DNA from: Acidobacteriota bacterium
GTDB lineage: Bacteria; Acidobacteriota; Vicinamibacteria; Vicinamibacterales; UBA2999
Direction: 5' to 3'
NCBI GenBank assembly: GCA_018000455.1
Contig: JAGNJW010000025.1
Location: forward strand, 1 to 64,000
DNA length: 64,000 bases
The notes under the pieces: model-generated
Seen by the model: only the letters and a program-made list of their open reading frames with translations
The model's database searches: none
What the model was told of the DNA's origin: nothing
Shown: in pieces, positions 13,105 to 14,310 of the stretch
Layout: each line of letters opens with the position of its first letter
Numbering within the stretch: the first letter of the stretch is position 1
Translations under genes and position numbers: made by a program

Positions 13105-13764
13105 TTACGACGTAGTGTCGGTCGGACGCTGCAGCGCAGCTTCCACGAACTCGGCTTCCGGCAGACCGCCGAGGATCTCGACCGTGTCGTTCACGACCGT
13201 CTTCGGCACGCCGCTGACACGGTAGCGGCGCGAGAGATCCATGAACTCCTGTGCGTCGACGGCATCGGCCGTGATGTGGGGGTTGGCGTACGCCATCTTG
13301 TGAGCCAGGACGACCGCCCTGGGGCAATGCGGTCAAGTGGGGGTCGTGAACACCTGCAGGTGCAGCGGCTTGTCGACGCCGGCGAGCGAGGCCACGGTCT
13401 CGGGTTCGAGCTCGAGGTTACCGGTGCCGGCCAGCAGCACGGCTTCCACCAGCGACACGAACTCGTAGCCAGTATTGGCGCCGTAGAAGCGGATGCGTGT
13501 GTCGGCGCCGTCGCCCAGCACGACCACGGCCGGTGCCTTGTCGACGCCGTACTTGGCGAGGTCGTCGGTGTCGAGCACGAAGTTCTTGTCGACGACGGTA
13601 ATCTTCTCGTGCAGCGAGGCCACTTCATCCACCACCTGTCGGGCGATGAGGCCGCTCTCGCTGCCGCCGATCGTTTGCGTGAAGAGCAGCAGGTCGACCG
13701 GCTTGCTGATCGGGGCCAGGTGGGTGGTGAGGGTCTGACGATCACTATCGGAAAGAAGGGCCAT
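13105..13764 (-). CDS. Candidate selenoprotein: tandem thioredoxin/glutaredoxin-fold oxidoreductase with U-x-x-C
   Basis: One reading frame of 220 codons is interrupted only by a TGA at codon 144 (13333-13335). Read through as selenocysteine it gives LQVFTTPT-U-PHCPRAVVLAH, exactly the active site of protein-disulfide-oxidoreductase-like proteins where CPxC is expected. Downstream, VSGVPKTV supplies the cis-proline loop and GGLPEAEFVEAAL the final helix. The N-terminal half is a second thioredoxin fold whose active site has decayed (FTQTIGGSE, no Cys), with KAPAVVVL as its cis-Pro strand. Stopping at TGA would remove the catalytic half of the domain. The SECIS-like hairpin is listed separately. 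No sel genes are in the window. Alternatives are a sequencing error or a nonsense mutation. Confidence 0.75.
13305..13322 (-). promoter_or_regulatory. Bacterial SECIS-like hairpin after the in-frame TGA
   Basis: On the minus strand, CCAGGGC pairs with GUCCUGG (seven pairs including one G-U) and closes a GGUC tetraloop. The loop starts 17 nt after the TGA. A GGUC apical loop at nearly this distance is what I recall of E. coli fdhF, where SelB contacts the G and U. No equivalent of its bulged U is obvious. Confidence 0.55.
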
Positions 13765-13812: not shown

Positions 13813-14310
13813 CTAGAACTTGAACAGATCGTCGAACGCCTTCTTGGCGCCCGACGCCGACTCCGGCGACCCGCTCGTCGGCGAAACCGGCGCCGGCGTG
13901 GAGCTGGTCTCACGCTCCCAGCTGGCACGCGCCGAGAAGAGGCTGCACTCGTTGGCGGCATCCTTCGGCGAGACGCGCGCCGGAATCGTCTCGCTGCACT
14001 CGAAGCGCGCGCTTGGGTCGAAGTGCACGCACTGGATGCAGGCGTGCAACGCCGTCTGGCACTTCTCGCACTTGCTGAGCGCGAGGATCTCGCTTTCGAC
14101 GGGGGTGCCGCAGCGCGCGCATTTCGCCACCGCGCGATAGCCCATCATGCGCGGGTTCTTGGCGCCTTCCGACGACATGCGCCGCGTGCCTGCGGGTGCG
14201 CCAGGCTCCCGTTCCGGGCGCCGGTCCCCGCCGCTGAGACCGCTGTCGCGAGGCCGCCGGTCGCGATCGTCGTCCTGGTAGCCGTGCTGCCGGTACTTGC
14301 GTTCGGACAT
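13813..14310 (-). CDS. Small zinc-ribbon protein of unknown function
   Basis: 165 residues. A basic, disordered first third (many Arg and Asp) is followed by a Cys-rich core with CARC, CEKC, CIQC, FECSE and ECSLF, enough for two or three zinc sites, then a Ser/Pro-rich tail ending KKAFDDLFKF. Likely cytoplasmic, and probably a nucleic-acid or protein-binding adaptor. I know similar uncharacterised proteins but cannot name a family. GAAGG lies before the ATG. It stands alone between the thioredoxin-fold gene and a serine hydrolase gene on the same strand. Confidence 0.7.
   Translation of the reverse strand: MSERKYRQHGYQDDDRDRRPRDSGLSGGDRRPEREPGAPAGTRRMSSEGAKNPRMMGYRAVAKCARCGTPVESEILALSKCEKCQTALHACIQCVHFDPSARFECSETIPARVSPKDAANECSLFSARASWERETSSTPAPVSPTSGSPESASGAKKAFDDLFKF

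Follow-up and report, generated by a model that had tools for sequence, protein, structure and literature searches.

The gene at positions 13,105–13,764 (minus strand) of the 64,000-nucleotide stretch analysed here, hereafter the window, is best explained as a whole as encoding a protein disulfide oxidoreductase (PDO) of the selenoprotein kind, in which selenocysteine (Sec) 144 forms the active site and which should act as a reductase rather than an isomerase; we put the probability of this reading at about 0.96. Judged from sequence comparison, the single in-frame TGA of the gene is almost certainly decoded as Sec at the active site. The assignment to a known selenoprotein PDO family is well supported, and since this family has already been catalogued (PMC1794560, PMC9312934, PMC13188914), its biology is not as novel as the original prediction implied. 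What is new is the wide conservation of the Sec form in apparently aerobic Acidobacteria, together with repeated switches between Sec and Cys, the loss of the N-terminal redox site and linkage to a gene for a zinc-ribbon-like protein.

The PDO gene begins with an ATG at 13,764 and ends with a TAA at 13,107–13,105. The coordinates and frame first proposed were exact, but the 220 codons then counted include the stop, and the protein has 219 residues. The TGA is codon 144 (13,333–13,335, minus strand), read as the first residue of UPHC in the context FTTPT-U-PHCPRA. Comparison with NCBIfam gave a match between the read-through protein and TIGR02187 ("PDO_seleno_TRX") of 229.3 bits against a curated cut-off of 185, which is exceeded across the full model (positions 2–207 of 209, residues 6–211 of the protein). 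Homology therefore continues unbroken past the TGA, as had been claimed. Solved PDOs of Aquifex and Pyrococcus match across most of the length, and the Pyrococcus protein (1a8l) aligns to residues 1–211 with a Cys opposite the TGA; Cys-form relatives also have Cys there, and the codon takes the place of the first Cys of the C-terminal CPHC site. Among 46 aligned proteins, C147, which would be the resolving Cys of the UPHC site, is invariant, as are V186 and P187 of the GVP motif (residues 185–187). An AlphaFold model built on the same 46-sequence alignment (pLDDT 94.9, pTM 0.91) contains the two tandem thioredoxin folds that characterize TIGR02187 PDOs, and places residue 144 just ahead of the helix starting at Cys147. 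In Foldseek searches, PDOs and the N-terminal domains of AhpF rank first (TM about 0.8–0.9), the best matches being the PDOs 2ywm, 1a8l and 2ayt (TM 0.89–0.91). The plasmid homologues among the matches listed are distant, and are mostly AhpF proteins. Comparison of close relatives gave dN/dS ratios of 0.12–0.34 upstream and 0.13–0.38 downstream of the TGA, and on these sequence data purifying selection acts on both sides of it; frame decay beyond the TGA was looked for and not found.

The N-terminal thioredoxin fold carries a redox site that is degenerate by alignment, at residues 29–40 (TQTIGGSESGLI; 13,645–13,680, minus strand). Most families of the order combine GCETC or a similar motif in the first fold with UPHC in the second, whereas the family to which the window PDO belongs has GGSESG or similar in the first fold, so the loss of the N-terminal Cys was rightly recognized from the beginning. 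Thus, the archaeal-type pattern of a CxxC in both folds is absent from the window PDO, which has the Cys-free GGSESG in the first fold and UPHC in the second. The loss of CxxC is placed only once, at the base of the 24-sequence clade formed by this family (SH-aLRT 97). In the PDO of Sulfolobus, thiol-transferase activity depends fundamentally on the C-terminal site, while isomerase activity needs both sites (PMC7465337). By comparison, the window PDO should be a reductase or thiol transferase and not an isomerase, and its first thioredoxin fold would then have a structural or docking role.

Relatives were searched in 149 genomes, including that of the window itself. A PDO is present in 83 of them, and 69 genes from 68 genomes carry TGA at the aligned codon. 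Another 12 genes of the order have a Cys codon at this position, and so do all 10 loci examined from other groups, so that the in-frame UGA is aligned with the catalytic Cys of homologues; TAA or TAG was never found at the Sec codon in the homologous genes of the order. Relatives accordingly show the expected TGA or Cys at codon 144. Further stops occur elsewhere in the matches of a few relatives (TAA in G028, TAG in G137 and G048, a second TGA in G129), none of them at the Sec codon; these are taken to be ordinary terminators near the C-terminal end, the position having been checked for G048 (210). In one group of relatives (L071–L074, L078, L079, L083 and L086) the active site reads U-RF-C instead of U-PH-C, a replacement that would be expected to shift the redox potential of the site. 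In two genomes, a Sec copy coexists with a Cys copy (L095 and L048 in G135; L101 and L096 in G043). Outside the order, a phylum-wide sample contains homologues with one in-frame TGA (e.g., in G175, G243, G327, G383 and G450), so that the Sec form may be distributed far more widely, judged by TGA-containing matches at any codon position.

The Sec form of the enzyme tends to go with the presence of selA. selA was found in 66 of the 68 Sec genomes but in only 3 of the 11 genomes with Cys forms alone (Fisher p 2.6e-7); the p value is left uncorrected for kinship because phylogenetically independent contrasts provided 5 pairs, too few for significance. The two Sec genomes lacking selA, G036 and G133, are both incomplete draft assemblies. 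A protein tree from which the trait columns had been excluded requires at least nine interchanges of Sec and Cys within the order, with several Cys forms nested within Sec clades. The simplest reading of this tree is that Sec reverted to Cys repeatedly, often together with the loss of selA.

These distributions bear on the possibility that the UGA is a true stop, that the functional product is the N-terminal 143 residues, and that read-through is occasional or regulated. Sec insertion driven by a bacterial SECIS element (bSECIS) is generally not fully efficient, and some truncated product is to be expected. However, a 143-residue product would be left with GGSESG and without any redox site, purifying selection is still seen in the C-terminal half, and the replacement of TGA by Cys mostly in lineages without selA would be senseless if the stop were the function. 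We consider a functional truncation very unlikely.

A second line of evidence for a Sec codon comes from the mRNA. The search for a bSECIS suggested for 13,280–13,340 (minus strand) located a hairpin at 13,305–13,322 (minus strand; CCAGGGC-GGUC-GUCCUGG), with a 7 bp stem, a 4-nt loop GGUC and a predicted energy of −11.4 kcal/mol. Published bSECIS constraints are a loop of 3–9 nt, a stem of 4–16 bp and a G in the first two loop positions, as well as a distance of 16–37 nt from the UGA and a minimum free energy of −7.5 or lower (PMC13188914). The window hairpin, whose loop starts 17 nt past the UGA with a G in its first position, agrees with all four published criteria. In codon-anchored sequences, all 69 Sec genes were predicted to fold a hairpin whose loop covers the invariant GU, compared with 14 of 22 Cys genes, the mean energy being −11.05 and −5.92 kcal/mol, respectively. 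The loop codons GCG and GTC are near-fixed in Sec genes (61/69 and 60/69) and variable in Cys genes. In addition, the wobble bases of the fourth and ninth codons past the UGA, which are both largely free to vary synonymously, covary in Sec genes: the 28 distinct Sec sequences having G or C at both positions comprise 15 C-G, 11 G-C and 2 mismatched combinations (p 6e-6), while in Cys genes the link is absent (p 1.0). Relative to synonymous-codon shuffles, the hairpin of Sec genes has a lower energy (mean z −1.18) than that of Cys genes (0.02; p 1e-4), with a z of −0.94 for the gene in the window. As this lowering is only moderate, the case for a bSECIS rests on the loop sequence, the placement of the hairpin and the wobble covariation rather than on energy alone.

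A lone in-frame stop in a draft assembly is often due to error or decay, and the gene could accordingly be a pseudogene or contain a miscalled base. Against such an origin, the identical codon recurs, far beyond chance, at the exact aligned position in 69 homologous genes from the genomes of 68 species, two of them assembled as single contigs; selection is purifying on both sides of it, and the hairpin behind it is conserved and covarying. This conservation refutes a sequencing error or a chance nonsense mutation, the latter already thought improbable when the gene was first noticed, and makes such an origin even less credible than a functional truncation.

Selenocysteine decoding would also require dedicated machinery, for which selA, selB, selC and selD were sought in the genome carrying the window (54 contigs, rated 100% complete). 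The complete set expected for a bacterial selenoprotein was recovered: selA (520 bits), selB (335 bits with its neighbours; cut-off 242), selD (352 bits) and selC, the tRNA-Sec with anticodon TCA. A genome-wide reassignment of UGA to Trp or Cys, yielding an ordinary protein, would equally leave the frame open once TGA is counted as a residue, but it is rejected as the least likely alternative, because TGA is the commonest stop codon in the window, where it terminates 23 of 44 long genes, and because the genome has tRNA-Sec together with SelA, SelB and SelD. Taken together, all the checks first suggested favour the interpretation of the gene as a selenoprotein, which is supported overall, and we infer the incorporation of Sec at codon 144.

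The same genome contains further genes of this kind. Its selD (L018; G000:C52:114870-115790, minus strand) is itself a selenoprotein gene with an in-frame TGA at SCAG-U-ASK, and a formate dehydrogenase alpha subunit (L119; G000:C48:53837-55714, minus strand), with an in-frame TGA at SCNRT-U-H, is the third selenoprotein; since PDO, selD and the formate dehydrogenase alpha subunit all have an in-frame TGA, at least three selenoproteins are encoded. A second stretch that matches the model for formate dehydrogenase alpha (G000:C38:155239-156009, plus strand) contains, within the match, a single in-frame TGA, which may mark a fourth selenoprotein or have arisen by chance. The genome also encodes a canonical thioredoxin reductase, and four matches to heme-copper oxidase subunit I suggest that the host is aerobic.

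Directly upstream of the PDO gene lies a gene for an uncharacterised Cys-rich, zinc-ribbon-like protein of 165 residues (13,813–14,310, minus strand). Among the 78 loci in the order that have sufficient flanking sequence, 57 (50 Sec, 7 Cys) show the gene in this position and on the strand of the PDO gene, with which it is probably co-transcribed. The protein has a conserved C-terminal tail, ARxAFDDLFK, and no match above cut-off in Pfam or NCBIfam. It is a possible partner of the PDO; as its gene is found in 130 of the 149 genomes, including genomes without a PDO, its role should be wider than that of a PDO substrate. A bolder scheme would make the PDO a dedicated reductase of the zinc-ribbon-like protein, and the pair an order-specific Sec-based thiol redox switch retained despite aerobic life, with the N-terminal site having become dispensable once Sec had made the C-terminal site more reactive; we regard this as speculative and rather unlikely.

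From the sequence, the structural model and the covariation, a mechanism can be proposed in which SelB would bind the bSECIS hairpin and bring tRNA-Sec to the ribosome, so that UGA 144 is decoded as Sec. Sec144 would then act as the nucleophile attacking disulfides of the substrate, and Cys147 would resolve the intermediate, leaving a selenenylsulfide. By analogy with the chain of thioredoxin reductase (Tr), PDO and peroxiredoxin described in archaea (PMC7465337), the selenenylsulfide would probably be re-reduced by thioredoxin reductase. Candidate substrates are peroxiredoxins and the zinc-ribbon-like protein encoded next to the PDO gene. The presumed single active site in the second fold would match the layout of the N-terminal domain of AhpF.

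Among known systems, the catalogued Sec-form PDOs are the closest. They include two sequences in PMC1794560 and four in Asgard archaea (PMC11227280), and resemble the window PDO in the TIGR02187 model, the UxxC motif and the kind of predictive evidence. The published counts consulted, however, amount to a few sequences scattered over anaerobes or microaerophiles and Asgard archaea, whereas the form described here is widespread in an order of Acidobacteria, occurs in a host with heme-copper oxidases and belongs to a family without the N-terminal CxxC. We found no literature report of the Sec PDO family in Acidobacteria, and none of the ten best of 37 literature matches mentioned selenoproteins in connection with Vicinamibacter or Luteitalea. 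The PDOs of thermophiles (1a8l of Pyrococcus furiosus, 2ayt and 2ywm of Aquifex aeolicus, and the Sulfolobus PDO) likewise have two tandem thioredoxin folds (TM about 0.9) and a dominant C-terminal site, but they use Cys at this site, whereas the window PDO has Sec there and lacks the N-terminal CxxC. PDOs have been called exclusive to thermophiles (PMC7465337); unlike these hosts, the order of the window PDO is probably mesophilic. Two thioredoxin folds are also found in the AhpF N-terminal domain (1zyn, 5h29 and 6il7; TM 0.81–0.89), from which the window PDO differs in its Sec site and in not being fused to a flavoprotein reductase. In the AhpF domain, the active site is located in the second thioredoxin fold only. 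The glutaredoxin-like selenoprotein Uxx-star (NF041212) has a U-containing redox motif as well, but it represents a short single-domain family of 70 positions as opposed to two thioredoxin folds; membership of the window PDO was rejected, as it scores only 13 bits against a cut-off of 66.

Among aerobic bacteria, selenoproteins have been described as rare (PMC13188914). In the present case, Sec is kept by most of the PDO-carrying genomes of an order of environmental (soil) Acidobacteria, including an apparent cultured isolate. The finding extends PDOs beyond thermophiles and draws attention to a conserved neighbour of the zinc-ribbon-like type, and it illustrates that annotation pipelines risk cutting such genes at the UGA. 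With Sec and Cys orthologues side by side, and with the Cys-form genomes mostly lacking selA, the order provides a natural series on what Sec buys in an aerobe.
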